From Dehalogenimonas etheniformans (GTDB taxonomy: Bacteria; Chloroflexota; Dehalococcoidia; Dehalococcoidales; Dehalococcoidaceae), in NCBI RefSeq assembly GCF_014672715.2, contig NZ_CP058566.2, positions 1,674,001-1,738,000 of the forward strand: DNA of 64,000 nucleotides, in the 5' to 3' direction. The notes beneath the pieces are model-generated. The model was not told the origin of the DNA. It was given only the letters and a program-made list of their open reading frames with translations, and made no database searches. Position numbers and translations under genes: made by a program. Shown here one piece after another: positions 8,238 through 17,284 of this stretch; the first letter of the stretch is position 1; the number at the start of each line of letters is the position of its first letter.

Positions 8238-8709
8238 TCAATGTTCCGCGGGATGCCCCTGATGAGGTAATTCTTCGGGGATCATAATCCGACGCATGAG
8301 TTCATTATCGACCATGCGCTGAAAGAGCTTCTTTATTTTCAATCGAATGTACAACGATAGGCCGGCCGTCAATCCCCACTGAAATACGTGCTAAAGCCTT
8401 TCTCCTCACCATCCTCAACTCCATCCTTAGCGAGCGCAAATTCTACGAATGAATGCAATACGATCTCCCATTCACGTGGCTTCTCGATCTTCTTATCCAG
8501 TTTCCCCAAAAATCGGTAAATGATGCTTGAACACCGAGTGGCGCCAGCAAAGATACAGACACTCCCATCATGAGCCCGAGATTCGCCCTGGCAAACTCCA
8601 CCGCCCACCACCCTGGCTTGGGCTCAATAAATTTATACCACAAACTCTTTAAGCACCCAAGTGCCAAGCGCCTGTCGGCTGTGGTTTGTTTTGATACTTC
8701 GGTTGTCAT
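8238..8709 (-). pseudogene. Decayed protein gene of unrecognised family (three frameshifts)
   Basis: The 8102-9386 interval has no intact gene. Reading leftward from ATG 8709, a protein-like sequence starts MTTEVSKQTTADRRLALG. It continues through three consecutive frames: the shifts are near a GGGG run at about 8510, near 8405 and near 8330. Each segment reads like real protein (KLDKKIEKPREWEIVLHSF, then ISVGIDGRPIVVHSIENK, then LFQRMVDNELMRRIMIPEEL) and the last ends at TGA 8238. Rejoined it would be about 155 residues. The family was not recognised. The rest of the interval (8710-9045) shows nothing else supportable. Confidence 0.4.
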
Positions 8710-10650: not shown

Positions 10651-12309
10651 TTAAAAAATATCTACGCTTGCGCCGCGAATTGGGTTTACCGAAGCCCACC
10701 ATTCATCACCGTTTGGGGAGTAACGCGGGCCATATCCGAATGTTTCTTCCGCATTCCTAAAGAAGCCGTTGAATGCTGGTGTGGTGGCAAGTGTCGCCCT
10801 AACCACGTTATGCACAAAAGAGTTGTTAGACATAGTGAAGAAGGGGCAGTATACCTCACAATTGGTACAAACGATACATTTGTGATAATCAAGGTGCCAT
10901 CCCTCATAACCGCTCACGCAATCCCAGTAAGGCGAGTCATAGCGTGGGCCCTCGTGGGATATGGCTTGTCCGGGACATTTTTCGGCACAGATCCCACAGG
11001 TCTTGCAGAACTCACGGATACCGGCATCAATCGGTTTGGTAGGGGCGAGAGGCAGGTCTGTAAGCATTCTCAAAGAACCCTTGGTATTGGAGCCGTAGCG
11101 TGGCTCAATAATACTGGATACGCGGGCTTGTTCGCCAAGGCCGCTAAGGTTACCGAAGGCACCACCGGGCCCCCAAGCCTCGACACCACCGCCCATGGAG
11201 TTATATCCCAAGCCTGAAATGAATTGCAGCAGGCGTCCCTCTACTTCGGTAAATAGCGGGTAGGCAATGCAGGAAGCAACATCCATGCCTATCGAATCCG
11301 AATATTTGAAGCGCTTCTCAGGAAGCATAACGGTATAGGTGAAGATGTTATCCAGCGCATTGGGTACTACTATCTTATCATCACCACCGAAACGCTTATA
11401 GCTGTAATGCCCCTGGTCTGCGGGTATATCCTCAAACACAATGGGTATGGGATAATTATCCACCGGGACCGGGTATTCAATATACTCAGTCGTTTTCATA
11501 ACGTGATGCCAGGGCGCAAAGAGAAAAGGTTGAGCTTTGGTGAAAAAGATCTTCTTTACATTATCTGTTATCTTAATGGCACCGATGGAAGATGCTCCAA
11601 AGTATCGTGTTGCAGTGCGCATCATGATCAAGTTTTCCTCAGGCGTACCCTGCCACTTCGGGTAATCCTGAAGCTTGACGTCTGTATAGCCAAATTCATG
11701 CCAGCCATTTAGGCCGGTCATGGTGCGCAGTGAGAGATACGGACGGGAGCCATTGTAACGATTACTTCCGTAAAGCGGATTATTCCAGATATTATGCGAG
11801 CCAGCTGTAGCGGCATAAATTAAAGCATCTTCCTTACGGTCACCAAAGCCCTGCCAACCAGCGTAGTAATCCGGATCAATATTGTCTTTCATCCAGTTTA
11901 TCCCTGTTTGATACCACAACGTGTCAATCCGTTTCTTCCCTTGGGTACCTTCTATTACCGAATCAACAATTGTATGTCGTCTGTCGTTATAATCTGGTGA
12001 CAGGTAATTTTCAGGCAGCACATAGGCTCCTTGGTTATTCCAGCCGCTGTATCTGGTTATCAGGTTCCAGTCAATATTACAGGTGGGGTTTTCATGTTCT
12101 CTGGTTTTAACCCACCACGGCTCGTTGTTTACCTTATTAGCATGGTCACCCTCTAAGGCTTTACCTGCAGATAGCACGTCATCAAGATCCTTAAACTCAA
12201 CCGGCAGATTATTGTTCGCAAGTACAGCGGCACCCAGCCCACCTGCACCTGCCAGACCCAAGCCCTTCATAAAATCTCTTCGGCTTATGCTTGAATGGAA
12301 ATTGGACAT
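10651..12309 (-). CDS. rdhA: Reductive dehalogenase catalytic subunit
   Basis: A corrinoid- and Fe-S-dependent enzyme that removes halogen from organohalides as terminal electron acceptor on the cell exterior. From ATG 12309 it has 552 residues. The Tat signal SRRDFMKGLGLAGAG is near residues 8-22. Two 4Fe-4S motifs are at residues 435-445 (CKTCGICAEKC) and 478-488 (CIVCTNCEVYC). The YGSNTKGSLRMLTDLP segment is typical of the family. ATG 12309 follows AAGGAG; an in-frame GTG at 12381 has an even better AAGGAGG but would add 24 residues before the Tat signal. It lies downstream of nrdJ on the same strand with a 181-bp gap. The substrate cannot be predicted. Confidence 0.96.
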   Translation of the reverse strand: MSNFHSSISRRDFMKGLGLAGAGGLGAAVLANNNLPVEFKDLDDVLSAGKALEGDHANKVNNEPWWVKTREHENPTCNIDWNLITRYSGWNNQGAYVLPENYLSPDYNDRRHTIVDSVIEGTQGKKRIDTLWYQTGINWMKDNIDPDYYAGWQGFGDRKEDALIYAATAGSHNIWNNPLYGSNRYNGSRPYLSLRTMTGLNGWHEFGYTDVKLQDYPKWQGTPEENLIMMRTATRYFGASSIGAIKITDNVKKIFFTKAQPFLFAPWHHVMKTTEYIEYPVPVDNYPIPIVFEDIPADQGHYSYKRFGGDDKIVVPNALDNIFTYTVMLPEKRFKYSDSIGMDVASCIAYPLFTEVEGRLLQFISGLGYNSMGGGVEAWGPGGAFGNLSGLGEQARVSSIIEPRYGSNTKGSLRMLTDLPLAPTKPIDAGIREFCKTCGICAEKCPGQAISHEGPRYDSPYWDCVSGYEGWHLDYHKCIVCTNCEVYCPFFTMSNNSFVHNVVRATLATTPAFNGFFRNAEETFGYGPRYSPNGDEWWASVNPIRGASVDIF

Positions 12310-12490
12310 GGATTTATTTCTCCTTCTTTCTTCTGGTATCTGTGCTGATTTTTCCGGTCTCTCCCGGATGCCAAGCTGCACTCGCGCCTCCTTCGTAGCT
12401 ATCACATGCACATTCAAGGGTTGGAAAAAACAAAGCTACTCAAGCTATGTTAGATATTCTTCCTTTCTCCAATAACTTTGATTTCTAACG

Positions 12491-14284
12491 CTAATCGTTT
12501 TTGAACCGTCGGCCAACAAGATTCATTCCAGTCTCACTGGTACAAAGTGGTTGCAAGTCCCGGCTCTTGTCCCTGTACACTGTGATTCCTTTAAGTCCTT
12601 GCTCGTATGCCATCATAAAAACCTTGGCGATATCTGCTCTGGTGGCGCTCTTGGGGAAGTTCACGGTCTTACTAACGGCATTATCGGTTTGCCGCTGGAA
12701 AGCTGCCTGAACTCTGACGTGCCAGTCTGGAGACACCCTATGCGCGGTCACGAATATCTTACGTATGTCTTCGGGGATCTCTTTCCTGAGATGAAGGTGG
12801 TTTGATGTTACCAACTGCTCAAAAAGCTCACGGGTGAAGAAGCCGCGTTCCCGGGCTGCTTCCTCGAAATATGGATTGATCTCCAGCAGATTTTCCCCTT
12901 CTAGGATGTTGCGAACGAAAACCGCTGCGAAGATTGGTTCGATGCCGCTAGATACCCCGGCGATAATTGATAAGGTTCCAGTCGGGGCGATGGTGGTGCA
13001 GCAGGCGTTGCGCATCGGCATCCCCTCGGCTTCATAAACACTGCCGCTCCAGGCCGGGAACACGCCTCGTTCAATTGCCAGTTGCTGCGAAGCCTTGTGT
13101 GCCAGGTCGGTGATAAACTCCATGACTTCTTCAGCCACGGTGATTGCCTTTGTCGAGTTATAAGGGATGCCGAGTCGTATGAGCATGTCGGCAAAACCCA
13201 TGACGCCCAGACCGATCTTTCTGGTTCGCTTCGTCGCCTGCTCGACTTCGAGGAAGGGGAGACGGTTGATATCGATTACGTTATCAAGGAAACGTACTGC
13301 CAACGGGACAATCCTTGAAAGCTTTTCGAAATCGATCTCAAGTCCCTCGGGTTGATTCTTGAGCATCATGGCAAGGTTGATAGAGCCAAGATTGCAGGAC
13401 TCATACGGGAGTAAAGCCTGCTCGCCGCAGCCGGTGATAGTTTTCATCCGTCCTAGGAGAGGTGTAGGATTGTCGCGGTTAACGCGGTCGATAAACACGA
13501 ATCCGGGGTCACCGGTTCGCCAAGCCTGATCGACAATGAGGTTAAAGACATCTCTAGCTCTAAGCCAGAGCGTCGCTTTCCCGTTCCGAGGATCAATGAT
13601 GGGATAATTCTCGCCCGATCTCACCCTCGACATAAAATCGTCCGTAACCGACACTGAGTTATGGAAATTTGTTAGCGCCAACGGGTCGTTCTTGGCCTTA
13701 ATGAAATCGAGGATATCCGGATGATCCACACTAAGGACTACAGAGTTGCATCCGCGGCGGACGCCGCCCTGTTTAATATAATCTGCTGCTCTGGCAAAGA
13801 CATCGATAAGGGCTACAGGGCCACCAGCGGCATTTGGATGATCGCCCACAGAACTGCCCTTGGCGCGCACCTGCGAAAAGTCATAACCGATGCCGCCGCC
13901 GCTTTTATGGATGAGAGCGGTATATTTTACTGCGTCGAACGTCTCTTCAATAGAATCATGTACCGGGAGAACGAAACATGAGGATAACTGACCGTCTTCG
14001 GTACCGGCATTCAAGAGCGTAGGCGAGTTTGGCAGGAACTCCAAATTTATCATAAGCTGATAGAAATTCTTTTCTACCATCGCAACATCGGCATCGGGAT
14101 CGTATTTGAATTCGGCTGACGCAACCGCTTTGGCTACGCGATGGAACATATCCTCAGGGGTTTCGATGATCTCACTTGCACGATTGCGCCTCAGATAACG
14201 TTTCTCAAGTACTCTAAGAGCGTTCGCCGAAATGAGCATCTTTTTTGGAACTGATTCTTCAAGTGTATTGGGCATTTGCATCAC
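12491..14284 (-). CDS. nrdJ: Adenosylcobalamin-dependent (class II) ribonucleotide reductase
   Basis: It reduces ribonucleotides to deoxyribonucleotides using a thiyl radical formed from adenosylcobalamin, so it needs no oxygen and no second subunit. The 597-residue protein shows LEFLPNSPTLLNAG, the redox Cys in LSSCFVLPV, the radical-site segment TGCGEQALLPYESCNLGSIN and the C-terminal GITVYRDKSRD. It has no N-terminal ATP cone. The C-terminus stops soon after YRDKSRD and has only one Cys, so the usual C-terminal CxxC reductant tail is missing and a separate reductant would be needed. It overlaps the DUF2795 gene by 4 bp and sits upstream of rdhA. Confidence 0.95.
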   Translation of the reverse strand: MMQMPNTLEESVPKKMLISANALRVLEKRYLRRNRASEIIETPEDMFHRVAKAVASAEFKYDPDADVAMVEKNFYQLMINLEFLPNSPTLLNAGTEDGQLSSCFVLPVHDSIEETFDAVKYTALIHKSGGGIGYDFSQVRAKGSSVGDHPNAAGGPVALIDVFARAADYIKQGGVRRGCNSVVLSVDHPDILDFIKAKNDPLALTNFHNSVSVTDDFMSRVRSGENYPIIDPRNGKATLWLRARDVFNLIVDQAWRTGDPGFVFIDRVNRDNPTPLLGRMKTITGCGEQALLPYESCNLGSINLAMMLKNQPEGLEIDFEKLSRIVPLAVRFLDNVIDINRLPFLEVEQATKRTRKIGLGVMGFADMLIRLGIPYNSTKAITVAEEVMEFITDLAHKASQQLAIERGVFPAWSGSVYEAEGMPMRNACCTTIAPTGTLSIIAGVSSGIEPIFAAVFVRNILEGENLLEINPYFEEAARERGFFTRELFEQLVTSNHLHLRKEIPEDIRKIFVTAHRVSPDWHVRVQAAFQRQTDNAVSKTVNFPKSATRADIAKVFMMAYEQGLKGITVYRDKSRDLQPLCTSETGMNLVGRRFKND

Positions 14285-14493
14285 AGTCCCCCAAAAACGA
14301 ACCGGCTCGGGAAAGTAGCCATAAAGCTCAGATCGGACGCGGTATACCGACCTTCGGGCAGACTGGACAGAAACCCGAGTAAACGAATTGGCGCTCCGTC
14401 CGATTCGGCTTTGTGGACCATGTCGCCCTTGGTTAAAGAGTCATCGGTCCCTTTGAGTATTGCTTCTAATCTGTCGAGATCTGCCTTGATCAT
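14281..14493 (-). CDS. Small DUF2795-like protein preceding nrdJ
   Basis: A 70-residue soluble protein whose C-terminal 50 residues (SLTKGDMVHKAESDGAP, then LSSLPEGRYTASDLSF) follow the DUF2795 pattern: helix with a K..A...GAP turn, then LP...Y....DLS. It is a paralogue of the 92-residue protein at 14669. Its stop overlaps the nrdJ start by 4 bp, so translation is coupled. The structured RNA at 14521-14640 lies directly upstream. Function of the domain is unknown; position suggests a role with NrdJ or its regulation. Confidence 0.75.
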   Translation of the reverse strand: MIKADLDRLEAILKGTDDSLTKGDMVHKAESDGAPIRLLGFLSSLPEGRYTASDLSFMATFPSRFVFGGL

Positions 14494-14520
14494 TGAGTCC
14501 TTATCTACCTTTACAGACTA

Positions 14521-14640
14521 GCAAGCACTGCGGTGAACCCCGATTACATCCAGGGAACACACGGGAGGGGTTTCACAGCGTATCAAGCCGGGCTGAGTCG
14601 CACAGCCAGGCACCCCGGTTTCCCCCACCGCATGGCTTGC
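14521..14640 (-). ncRNA. Structured leader RNA candidate upstream of DUF2795-nrdJ (copy A)
   Basis: About 120 bases closed by a long stem: GCAAGC/GCTTGC outside and GCGGTG/CACCGC inside (14626-14631 with 14530-14535). Inside are GGGAA/TTCCC pairing and a hairpin GGCTG-tgcgact-CAGCC. A diverged second copy at 16399-16500 keeps the inner closing stem (one G-U pair if read leftward, an A-C mismatch if read rightward), GCTGTGAAA, CGACTCAGCC and TGTAAT. This supports a leftward RNA. It lies 27 bp before the DUF2795 start in the nrdJ unit, so a riboswitch or attenuator is plausible. A canonical B12 box was not found. Confidence 0.6.
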
Positions 14641-14668
14641 AGGAAAACTGCATATTAAATTGTAAAAG

Positions 14669-14947
14669 CTAATCCTGCCCGAAAAAATAAGCGCTCGCGA
14701 AAGCCGCGAAGCTGAGATCTGATGGACAGTTGTAGATACGTTCCGGTAAACGATAAACGTAAAATTTCATAAGGTTTTCTGGAGCGCGGTTGGCTTCGGC
14801 CTTCTTGATAATCGACTCTTTCGACGCCGGATATTCAACACCACTAACGAAATATTCGATTACAGCGGCATTCACCTTAGGCTCCTCAACGAATCCTTGT
14901 GCCCATCCATTGACACTTTTCGTCTGCCGTTTTTCAACCGTAATCAT
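14669..14947 (-). CDS. DUF2795-like protein, 92 aa
   Basis: Residues 43-90 match the DUF2795 pattern (YPASKESIIKKAEANRAP, then LPERIYNCPSDLSFAAF). The N-terminal 40 residues are family-unlike and lysine/valine rich. There are no membrane segments. It starts 2 bp after the receiver gene's stop, so the two are co-translated. A diverged copy occurs at 16530-16733 next to a decayed receiver, in the same order. Function unknown; pairing with a stand-alone receiver suggests an output or adaptor role. Confidence 0.75.
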   Translation of the reverse strand: MITVEKRQTKSVNGWAQGFVEEPKVNAAVIEYFVSGVEYPASKESIIKKAEANRAPENLMKFYVYRLPERIYNCPSDLSFAAFASAYFFGQD

Positions 14948-14949
14948 TT

Positions 14950-15375
14950 TCAGGTCCCAACTTTCTTATTTGCCCAAATACCGAAAGCTCTTGATAAATC
15001 ATGATTAGGCAATTCTTTTGATTGATCGGTTATCGTTTCAATTGCAAACACCAAATCGGCCATTATGATAGGTTTGAACACATAATCAGATTTACCCATA
15101 CTAAGTACATGTGCTGTATCTATTTGAGTCCCTAAAGGCTCGGAGACAAAAATGATGGGAATTTCCGAGAATCTGCGGATTTCCATTATCGCGGCCATTG
15201 TGTTTTGCATCGCGCCATCGATTATTATCAAACTAACATCAATAAGTTGTTCTTTTGTAAGAAAACCCGACCCATCCCCCAATAAAACCTCATTGGAATT
15301 CGGCCATCTAAATCGAATACTCATGATAATTGTTGCGGCAGCTTCTGCATCATCTGTCACTACTAAGATTTTCAC
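14950..15375 (-). CDS. Stand-alone receiver (CheY-like) protein
   Basis: A 141-residue receiver with no output domain. The acidic pair is in VVTDDAEAA, the candidate phosphoacceptor Asp in LIIIDGAMQ (about residue 53) and the Lys in VFKPI. The usual Thr/Ser is probably the Ser in IIFVSEP. It heads a leftward unit receiver - DUF2795 - structured RNA - DUF2795 - nrdJ. A decayed copy is at 16735-17156. It may relay phosphate or sequester a kinase for the orphan regulators nearby; this is inference. Confidence 0.8.
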   Translation of the reverse strand: MKILVVTDDAEAAATIIMSIRFRWPNSNEVLLGDGSGFLTKEQLIDVSLIIIDGAMQNTMAAIMEIRRFSEIPIIFVSEPLGTQIDTAHVLSMGKSDYVFKPIIMADLVFAIETITDQSKELPNHDLSRAFGIWANKKVGT

Positions 15376-15533
15376 GGAGATAAGTGTAACTCTCGCGCCT
15401 TACTAAATGATTAAATATTGTGACATTACATTACGTTACCTGTTTACAATGTTACAACGATGAATCAGTACATAACTCTATATAACTTATTCGTTGATTG
15501 TAAGTAGCGTTAAGACTGGCGCAGGGGCACCGG

Positions 15534-16172
15534 ATGAGTAACGATCTACAGATCCGCAGCTTTTTGAAGAGACTTCGTTTGCCGGTGGTGGCTCAAAACT
15601 ATTCACGACTCGCGGAAGAGGCGGCGGCCAATAACCAGACGTTTCAGGACTACCTCTTCGCTCTGCTGGAGGGTGAAGTCATCCAACGAGAAGATCATGC
15701 TCAAAAATTGAGACTATTGAGAGCCCTTTTCCCGGTGATCAAGAGCCTGGACAACTTCGACTTCAGCGCTATTCCATCAGCCAACAAAGCGCCGATACTC
15801 GAGCTGTCCCGCAGCACTTTTATCGACCGGCGCGAGAATGTGATTCTTATCGGCAGCTACGGCACCGATAAAACTCATCTAGCCATCAGTTTGGCGGCCA
15901 GCACTTGCCGCCAAGGCAAAAAGGTCCGTTTCTATACCGTCGCCGGACTGATTAACGAGCTGCTGGAAGCCGGATCAAAGCTTAAACTAGGCAAACTGGA
16001 ATCGGCCTTGGCCAAGTGTGATCTGATACTCCTGGATGAACTGGGCTTCGTGCCTTTCGGTAAAGAGGGCGCCGAAGCCCTGTTTACTTTCTGCTCTTCA
16101 CGCTACGAGCGAAGTTCTTTGATAATTACCACCAATTTGGACTTTGCACGCTGGAAAGAGATCTTCAATTGA
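15534..16172 (+). pseudogene. istB: Truncated IS21-family helper ATPase (IstB)
   Basis: The first 212 residues of an IstB/DnaC-like ATPase that helps IS21 transposition. The N-terminal helical domain (RLPVVAQNYSRLAEEAAANN) and the Walker B segment LILLDELGFVPF are present. The Walker A reads GSYGTDKTH where GxxGxGKT is expected, so the essential glycine is lost. The protein stops after NLDFARWKEIFN, about 40 residues early, and no istA lies upstream. It separates the two copies of the receiver/DUF2795/RNA module and is a dead remnant. Confidence 0.85.
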
Positions 16173-16398
16173 GCGTATTTGTTCTCAAATTCCCCAAAAT
16201 ACGAACCTAATTGGGAAGAAGTCATAAAATACAGGTCTCTCGCGAGATATTGGCCTTCTGGTAAGTCGAGATAAAGGACTACAGTGTGTTAGGCAGATAG
16301 TTCATCATTTGCCTTACTATTGGGCCAGTTTTAGCATTTCCTTATCCAAATTCACCTTTGATTCTTTCTTTTATCTAGACATTCATATGGCAAAATTT

Positions 16399-16500
16399 GC
16401 AGTGATACCCCAATTACACTCGGGGGAACACGCTGAAGGGATTTCACAGCACATTAAGTCGGCTGAGTCGTTGCAGGACACCCTGATATTCCTCCACCGC
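16399..16500 (-). ncRNA. Second, diverged copy of the structured RNA (copy B)
   Basis: It aligns along its length with 14530-14631. The closing stem GCGGTG/CACTGC is kept with one wobble, and ACGACTCAGCC, GCTGTGAAAT, GTGTTCCC and GTGTAATTGGGG are conserved. It follows the diverged DUF2795 copy, as copy A does. Downstream (16173-16398) there is no gene, only the broken istB end, so this copy probably controls nothing now. Confidence 0.5.
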
Positions 16501-16529
16501 CCCGCGCCTTGCGGACACTTTTTTAGATG

Positions 16530-16733
16530 TTACTCTATTTGTGTCCGAAACGTAGGCAGTAGTTTTAGGAGGATTTTACGGCGTCCAGAGTTTAGGAGAT
16601 TGTAGATACGAATTAATAACGATAAAATCGCAATGCGATAAGATATTGTTTCCCTCGGGCCCGCATTTAACGTCTCTTTCTCGAGTCCTCTAAGGAACTC
16701 CTTACGACTCAGCTCGGTAGGTAATTTTTGCAT
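16530..16733 (-). pseudogene. Diverged or decayed DUF2795 copy
   Basis: A 67-codon frame from ATG 16733. LSRKEFLRGLEKETLNAGP and the later RIYN line up with SKESIIKKAEANRAP and ERIYN of the 14669 gene, but the C-terminal half is scrambled and the DLSF segment is gone. It follows the decayed receiver as in the intact module. Probably non-functional. Confidence 0.45.
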
Positions 16734-16734
16734 T

Positions 16735-17156
16735 CTAGTTATTACTGCAATGAAAGGTTCCAGGAATGCTTTTTGATGAATCGAGATCTGTAAATTCTTC
16801 TGACTGGTTAGATAACGCTTCAATTGCAGACACTAAATCCGTTTTTGCTATGGGTTTAAACAGATAATCAGATATAATTAGACTTAATACACGAGCGGTG
16901 TCCATCTGATTCCCAACAGGACTGGACATAAAAATGAGACGGACTTCCGAGACTCTGCGTATTGCCTCAATTGAAGTTATTATGTTTTGCATCTCCCCAT
17001 CAATTATTATTAAAGCCAAAATCACCAATTGTTGCCTTTGTTAGAGATTTACCTTTGTTTCTAGGACAACCTAATTGGAATTTAGCCATCGAAGCGGATA
17101 CATACGATAATTGTTGAAAGGGCGTCTACATCATCTATCATTGCCAAGAATTTCAT
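16735..17156 (-). pseudogene. Decayed copy of the stand-alone receiver gene
   Basis: From ATG 17156 the sequence reads MKFLAMIDDVDALSTII, matching the 14950 protein's MKILVVTDDAEAAATII. It then hits in-frame stops in the stretch equal to FRWPNSNEVL and needs a frame change to resume as LALIIIDGEMQN and YLFKPIAKTDLV. The remaining open part (16735-17028) keeps the Asp and Lys positions. It lies beside a second orphan regulator, showing that a regulator/receiver/DUF2795 block was duplicated. Confidence 0.8.
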
Positions 17157-17284
17157 ATACATGATTGTAACTGTCACACCTCGCAAATTGATTACCTTTT
17201 ATAACACTATGATACGTTGCATGGTGCATTCGAGATCTTTATCTAAGTCTTTATAACTTTTACTGTTTTAAAATGGTAGTGAAG

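Follow-up and report, generated by a model that had tools for sequence, protein, structure and literature searches.

An uncatalogued, covariation-supported RNA upstream of nrdJ-like and other genes in Dehalococcoidales and in phages

Purine-class riboswitches are built on a three-way junction closed by a helix P1, with the loops of two arms paired to each other and a conserved unpaired core. The RNA described here resembles them in layout only, as it has its own sequence, a pseudoknot of 6 bp, an extra hairpin (P3), and a long, stable P1. The processive antitermination RNAs EAR and put offer a second comparison, being likewise structured RNAs that act in cis within operons or in the transcripts of phages and have no ligand platform; we take their sequence and fold to be different, and terminators, in contrast, are not enriched downstream of the present RNA. 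The cobalamin riboswitch (RF00174) is comparable in its multi-helix fold and in its leader position before paralogous radical SAM-...-nrdJ operons of the same genomes, but its sequence and topology are unlike those of this RNA, whose targets outside the genus Dehalogenimonas are mostly not B12 genes.

Among published RNAs, the closest is the rdhA motif WRC-34-1, a weak riboswitch candidate of the same bacterial family that is linked to rdhA, with 18 representatives, mostly from Dehalococcoides and directly upstream of rdhA (Narunsky et al. 2024, PMC11109978). By its description, WRC-34-1 is a different RNA, as three Dehalococcoides-type genomes each carry 2 copies of ours and none of these precedes rdhA. 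No description of the RNA was found in the literature; it may occur unnamed in the drawn consensus or the supplementary lists of that study (Narunsky et al. 2024, PMC11109978).

Within the window, the whole stretch of 64,000 nucleotides analyzed here, copy 1 of the RNA occupies 120 nt of the minus strand (14640-14521), 5' of a DUF2795-like ORF, nrdJ, and rdhA. Scores for the RNA come from two covariance models, R1 (built from 20 copies) and R2 (built from 109 matches). The features of the locus are:

14521..14640, minus strand: copy 1, the entire element, with the RNA 5' end at 14640 (cmsearch, R1 127 bits, R2 107 bits)
14669..14947, minus strand: DUF2795 ORF of 92 aa, upstream of copy 1 (Pfam 38.6 bits, cut-off 25)
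14281..14493, minus strand: DUF2795-like ORF of 70 aa, first gene downstream of copy 1 (Pfam 23.6 bits, slightly below the cut-off of 25)
12491..14284, minus strand: nrdJ-like adenosylcobalamin-dependent ribonucleotide reductase of 597 aa (TIGR02504 NrdJ_Z 650 bits, cut-off 400)
10651..12417, minus strand: rdhA, reductive dehalogenase with a Tat signal (PF13486, 60.9 bits)
14950..15375, minus strand: response-regulator-receiver-like ORF (Pfam 27.7 bits, below the cut-off of 30.2)
16390..16505, minus strand: copy 2, diverged and partly decayed, with broken pairs (R1 70 bits, R2 50 bits)

As a clear DUF2795 ORF lies on its 5' side and the near-cut-off one on its 3' side, copy 1 sits between two DUF2795-type ORFs. 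The original prediction placed it upstream of DUF2795-nrdJ; the nrdJ assignment stands, whereas the DUF2795 call for the first downstream gene falls short of the cut-off. The limits of copy 1 are set by the ends of P1, and so are wider than the 14530-14631 first proposed. Because both window copies (copy 2 is locus L026) were among the sequences from which the models were built, their scores are not independent evidence, which is provided instead by distant copies.

The two copies, predicted at the outset as diverged minus-strand counterparts, are about 75% identical across 106 nt. The duplicate segment by copy 2 also has a response-regulator-like ORF (16735-17028), and the response-regulator-like region containing the 14950..15375 ORF is 69% identical in nucleotides to 16773-17218 across 450 nt. 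Several base pairs are disrupted in copy 2 and it has no clear target gene, for which reasons it is read as decaying; the ORF adjoining it has no DUF2795 match in Pfam. By sequence comparison, copy 2 is a decayed part of a diverged segmental duplication that comprised the response-regulator-like ORF and the RNA. An IS21 istB-like ATPase gene (15534-16172) is inserted between the two duplicated segments.

When the whole window was compared with the 4227 families of Rfam 15 at gathering score, two tRNAs were found and nothing else. In a permissive scan of 14400-16700, carried to E 10, the two best matches, at E 5 and 9.6, are ascribed to chance. No Rfam family reached gathering score in 20 loci with distant copies, and five viral loci had no relevant match up to E 5. 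For RF00174 and its clan specifically, there was no covariance-model match at E<=10 in 14400-16700 and none at gathering score in the 20 distant-copy loci, which agrees with the earlier statement that the canonical cobalamin riboswitch does not fit; nor did the nrdJ-type motifs, Moco, or known ribozymes of Rfam 15 match the RNA by covariance model. An unassigned structured RNA, as originally predicted, is thus borne out by the lack of any match to a known riboswitch or other Rfam 15 family together with overwhelming covariation among homologues.

The structure statistics were taken from an alignment of 105 distinct sequences and 38 base pairs (P1, PC, PA, P3, and PE). In these, 95.2% of cells are paired, as compared with 36-56% in slid controls, and 35 of the 38 pairs have changed on both sides. 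Covariation is 0.534, against 0.189+-0.005 in shuffled alignments, and none of 500 shuffles reaches the observed value; chance is excluded. Only P1, PA, and P3 guided the fitting of the alignment, and PC and PE, which lie outside the fitted structure, are nevertheless paired in 98.8% of cells, with 5/8 pairs changed on both sides and 0/500 shuffles. The copies of the genus alone already covary (15/30 pairs). On the minus strand, G-U or U-G wobbles occupy 237 cells and A-C or C-A mismatches 40; this excess on the gene strand shows that it is the RNA that is selected, read leftward in the window as had been proposed. Single-sequence folding is unimpressive (z -1.97 for copy 1 and 0.01 for copy 2), so the claim rests on comparison. 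A competing hairpin preferred by simple folding, PB (CCCUGG/UCGGGG), was rejected, its conservation being no better than in shuffles. In copy 1 the elements of the fold are:

14626..14640, minus strand: P1 5' strand, pairing with 14521-14535 (15/15 pairs changed on both sides, 95% of cells paired)
14521..14535, minus strand: P1 3' strand, pairing with 14626-14640
14622..14625, minus strand: PC 5' strand GGGG, pairing with 14567-14570 (98.1% paired, 3/4 pairs changed on both sides, including CGGG/CCCG)
14567..14570, minus strand: PC 3' strand CCCC, pairing with 14622-14625
14613..14618, minus strand: PA pseudoknot 5' strand CCGGGG, pairing with 14550-14555 (6/6 changed on both sides, 99.5% paired)
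14550..14555, minus strand: PA pseudoknot 3' strand CCCUGG, pairing with 14613-14618
14587..14611, minus strand: P3 hairpin GCC-GGCUG/CAGCC-GGC (9/9 pairs changed on both sides)
14562..14565, minus strand: PE 5' strand CCCG, pairing with 14539-14542 (99.5% paired, 2/4 pairs changed on both sides)
14539..14542, minus strand: PE 3' strand CGGG, pairing with 14562-14565
14543..14547, minus strand: unpaired, near-invariant GUAAU (87-100% across 66 effective clusters)

PC and PE are each crossed by PA, so that P1, PC, and PE meet in a three-way junction and its two arms, PC and PE, are locked together by the 6-bp pseudoknot, with P3 as a small hairpin. Conservation is at least 90% at 25 positions. 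Besides GUAAU, the best-conserved core letters, within the same 87-100% range, are GAAA (14622-14619) and GUG (14562-14560); P3 is the most variable part.

Within the genus, BLASTN detects the element in 6/8 genomes, with 2-8 matches apiece. Across the order, R1 finds it in 49 of 156 genomes and R2 in 59 of 156, belonging to 38 of 85 genera and amounting to about 160 copies, where E-values from these home-made models are rough. Single genomes can hold many copies, G037 and G135 having 15 each. In a sample of 400 genomes from the phylum, the 11 positives were all of the order and the other 389 gave no match. A pattern scan of about 85,000 species returned 82 stretches, of which the R2-positives are nearly all from Dehalococcoidia; those outside are two contigs labelled Aenigmatarchaeota and one labelled Kiritimatiellae, the last closely resembling a Dehalococcoidia locus. 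The two archaeal MAG contigs with the RNA (L230 and L234, labelled Aenigmatarchaeota archaeon) are probably viral or misbinned, and misbinning of contigs is possible more widely, many order-level genomes being MAGs. The labels Dehalogenimonas-type and Dehalococcoides-type are assigned from gene content and kinship, and ORF calls outside the window were made in this analysis.

With R2, hits were also obtained in IMG/VR contigs (4e-22 at best) and in Moorella phage MTATph1 (2e-12 for its locus), mostly with one RNA copy per viral record. In some viral forms the P3 domain is larger and includes a TGATGAGAGGCC stretch, as in the MTATph1 copy (L293:3872-4049, OR602862.1) and in L264, L270, L281, and L282; some of them also carry AACAGACA. 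Possibly these larger-P3 forms are a separate phage RNA family with a common core. The phylogenetic reach of the RNA argues for a biochemical role of that core. An anti-Shine-Dalgarno role of CCCCUCCC was considered and dropped, because many of the viral copies carry CCCGUCCC.

At 87 of 103 scorable places (p 5e-13), the RNA and the first downstream gene share a strand; the remaining 16 have no same-strand gene downstream. The median distance from element to start codon is 96 nt. Apart from copy 2 of the window and the corresponding copy in G005, all copies of the genus are closely followed by a start codon that has a Shine-Dalgarno sequence. An overlap between P1 and the Shine-Dalgarno sequence was rejected, since the latter lies beyond P1 in the copies read. 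The RNA also occurs in tandem arrays, a triple one on contig C162 of G135 (2199/2389/2584) and a double one on contig C52 of G037 (8249/8569); the former (2199-2705) stands before an SBP_bac_5 gene and the latter (8249-8687) before an ABC permease operon. In G037, copies L086, L087, and L130 abut the stop codon of the upstream gene and share a TAAAGAAA / TACAAAA flank.

The reading we favor, at a probability of roughly 0.5, is a new class of leader RNA, aptamer-like and acting in cis. It is situated in the leaders of mRNAs and in gaps between cistrons, and would most likely be a riboswitch-like sensor that sets downstream expression. The parts of this reading differ in strength: existence as a conserved RNA is practically certain and cis action on the downstream gene is likely, while small-molecule sensing has an even chance and a corrinoid as the ligand is doubtful. 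On this reading, the RNA would bind a small molecule, its PA/PE/PC core would be steadied by the binding, and translation or transcription of the downstream gene or operon would change as a result. The window copy would then act on DUF2795-like-nrdJ and perhaps on rdhAB, two genes farther down. A covariation-supported conserved fold in mRNA leaders is what is expected of a riboswitch, and the RNA-level fold, the near-invariant unpaired core, the same-strand placement, and the tandem arrays are consistent with a sensor; the arrays before single operons and the invariant core resemble aptamers in particular. Against this, no common expression platform is recognizable, P1 is long and GC-rich, unlike in many switching aptamers, targets across the order are heterogeneous, and close paralogues exist without the RNA, such as an 83%-identical radical SAM gene at G000:1173959. 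Terminator-based switching or attenuation was rejected because downstream terminators are not enriched, being present at 8/103 places as compared with 13/103 on the reverse strand.

What such a sensor might recognize is suggested, within the genus, by its targets. Nearly all Dehalogenimonas-type copies lead into cobalamin-linked genes, namely nrdJ, rdhA, B12-binding radical SAM, or cbiZ/cobA/cbiB, and among the targets are genes for radical SAM proteins that have genes for B12-binding radical SAM proteins next in line. The G007 genome has the RNA in front of an operon that runs radical SAM-cbiZ-radical SAM-nrdJ-cobA-cbiB and lies 3' of a tetrapyrrole methylase gene. The paralogue families across 11 genomes comprise 53 nrdJ matches and about 74 radical SAM matches, of which the RNA heads 14 nrdJ and 8 radical SAM genes. 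In G000 and G003, RF00174 hits lie instead 94-110 nt upstream of four paralogous radical SAM-...-nrdJ operons; all of these hits are below gathering score (24-30 bits vs 31.5). One of the operons, read whole, runs radical SAM-cbiZ-cbiB-cobA-nitrilase-nrdJ. A corrinoid link has its strongest support in this positional equivalence of the RNA and RF00174, and the leading ligand candidate in the genus would be a cobamide or a cobamide precursor. The hits themselves are short cobalamin-riboswitch variants (L387:5984-6128, L388:5878-6016, L389:212-340, and L390:227-356). G000, G003, G007, and others of the genus show an unusual expansion of short (~600 aa) NrdJ-like and NrdG-like radical SAM proteins, with 10 and 14 matches, respectively, in G000, and these families are often near rdhA or cobamide salvage genes.

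It could be speculated on this basis that the RNA is a new-fold corrinoid (cobamide) riboswitch that replaces the cobalamin riboswitch before some salvage and B12-enzyme operons. We consider this rather unlikely, as the standard cobalamin riboswitches present in 10/11 genomes of the family leave no need for a second class, the four equivalent RF00174 hits are below gathering score, and the target counts are not independent, the gene families having grown by duplication along with the RNA. Outside the genus, moreover, the 60 first genes include 20 for SBP_bac_5 proteins, 6 for ABC permeases, 6 for Mo-hydroxylase-type [2Fe-2S] subunits, 3 for DctP, and only 1 with a B12-binding domain, so that a corrinoid link is not generalized on present evidence. 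About half of these first genes are uptake systems, and ModBC-type and aldehyde:ferredoxin-oxidoreductase-type genes are also among the targets in sequences read by eye. The corrinoid sensing first suggested for this locus therefore keeps its gene association inside one genus and loses it in the rest of the order; it is plausible locally, in Dehalogenimonas-type genomes, by that association. More unlikely still is the wider proposal of a corrinoid-sensing class with its own fold, common to Dehalococcoidales and phages, that would work beside and in place of the cobalamin riboswitch and make the expression of reductive dehalogenase and of the B12-dependent ribonucleotide reductase depend on the supply of cobamide.

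Heterogeneous targets without a platform, intercistronic positions (some straight after stop codons), occurrence in phage gene clusters, and the terminators that separate the RNA from the gene at a few loci would also suit an element that senses nothing, such as a put/EAR-like processive antitermination RNA, an mRNA stabilizer, or a cleavage site; phages would use this element, and operons would have acquired copies of it. We hold this alternative, too, to be rather unlikely; against it stand the lack of a general excess of downstream terminators and a fold presumably unlike put or EAR. What follows the copies of Dehalococcoides-type genomes is in some cases a short peptide ORF and in others a terminator together with yajQ/DUF520. 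In two of these genomes, one copy (L107 and L109) has a hydrophobic peptide ORF of 26-28 aa (MS.LGLWLILIA..) about 25 nt on its 3' side, with a terminator-like hairpin after the ORF. A strong terminator about 10 nt after one copy in the Dehalococcoides-type genomes G009 and G010, together with the copies adjoining an upstream stop codon, also fits a free-standing RNA, and a small RNA that acts in trans and has a promoter and a terminator of its own could be multicopy with a conserved core; as most copies are without a terminator and lie shortly before a same-strand start codon, we hold this to be quite improbable. The compact pseudoknotted fold, invariant unpaired core, and scattered bacterial and phage contexts might likewise indicate a self-cleaving ribozyme of an undescribed class, but cleavage is purely hypothetical and no Rfam ribozyme model matches, which makes this very improbable. 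A mobile palindromic repeat (MITE- or REP-like), with structure relevant as DNA, would account for the inverted ends and for the many copies per genome, which resemble each other within a genome and differ in their flanks. This reading is already disfavored and has the slightest chance of all, as the one-strand G-U excess, the covarying pseudoknot, and the invariant unpaired core make sense only at the RNA level, the element keeps one orientation toward the next gene at most places, and paralogue comparison found no precise insertion or empty site.

In conclusion, the RNA forms a sizeable uncatalogued family of about 160 copies in 59 genomes, plus viruses, whose hosts are organohalide-respiring bacteria and their uncultured relatives. 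To judge from sequence, the RNA probably controls neighboring genes, and little is known of the control of dehalogenase and cobamide genes in those bacteria. Should the RNA sense a cobamide, it would tie gene expression to the cofactor that chiefly limits bioremediation strains; if it does not, its occurrence in phages and its position before uptake operons would point to a general control device.
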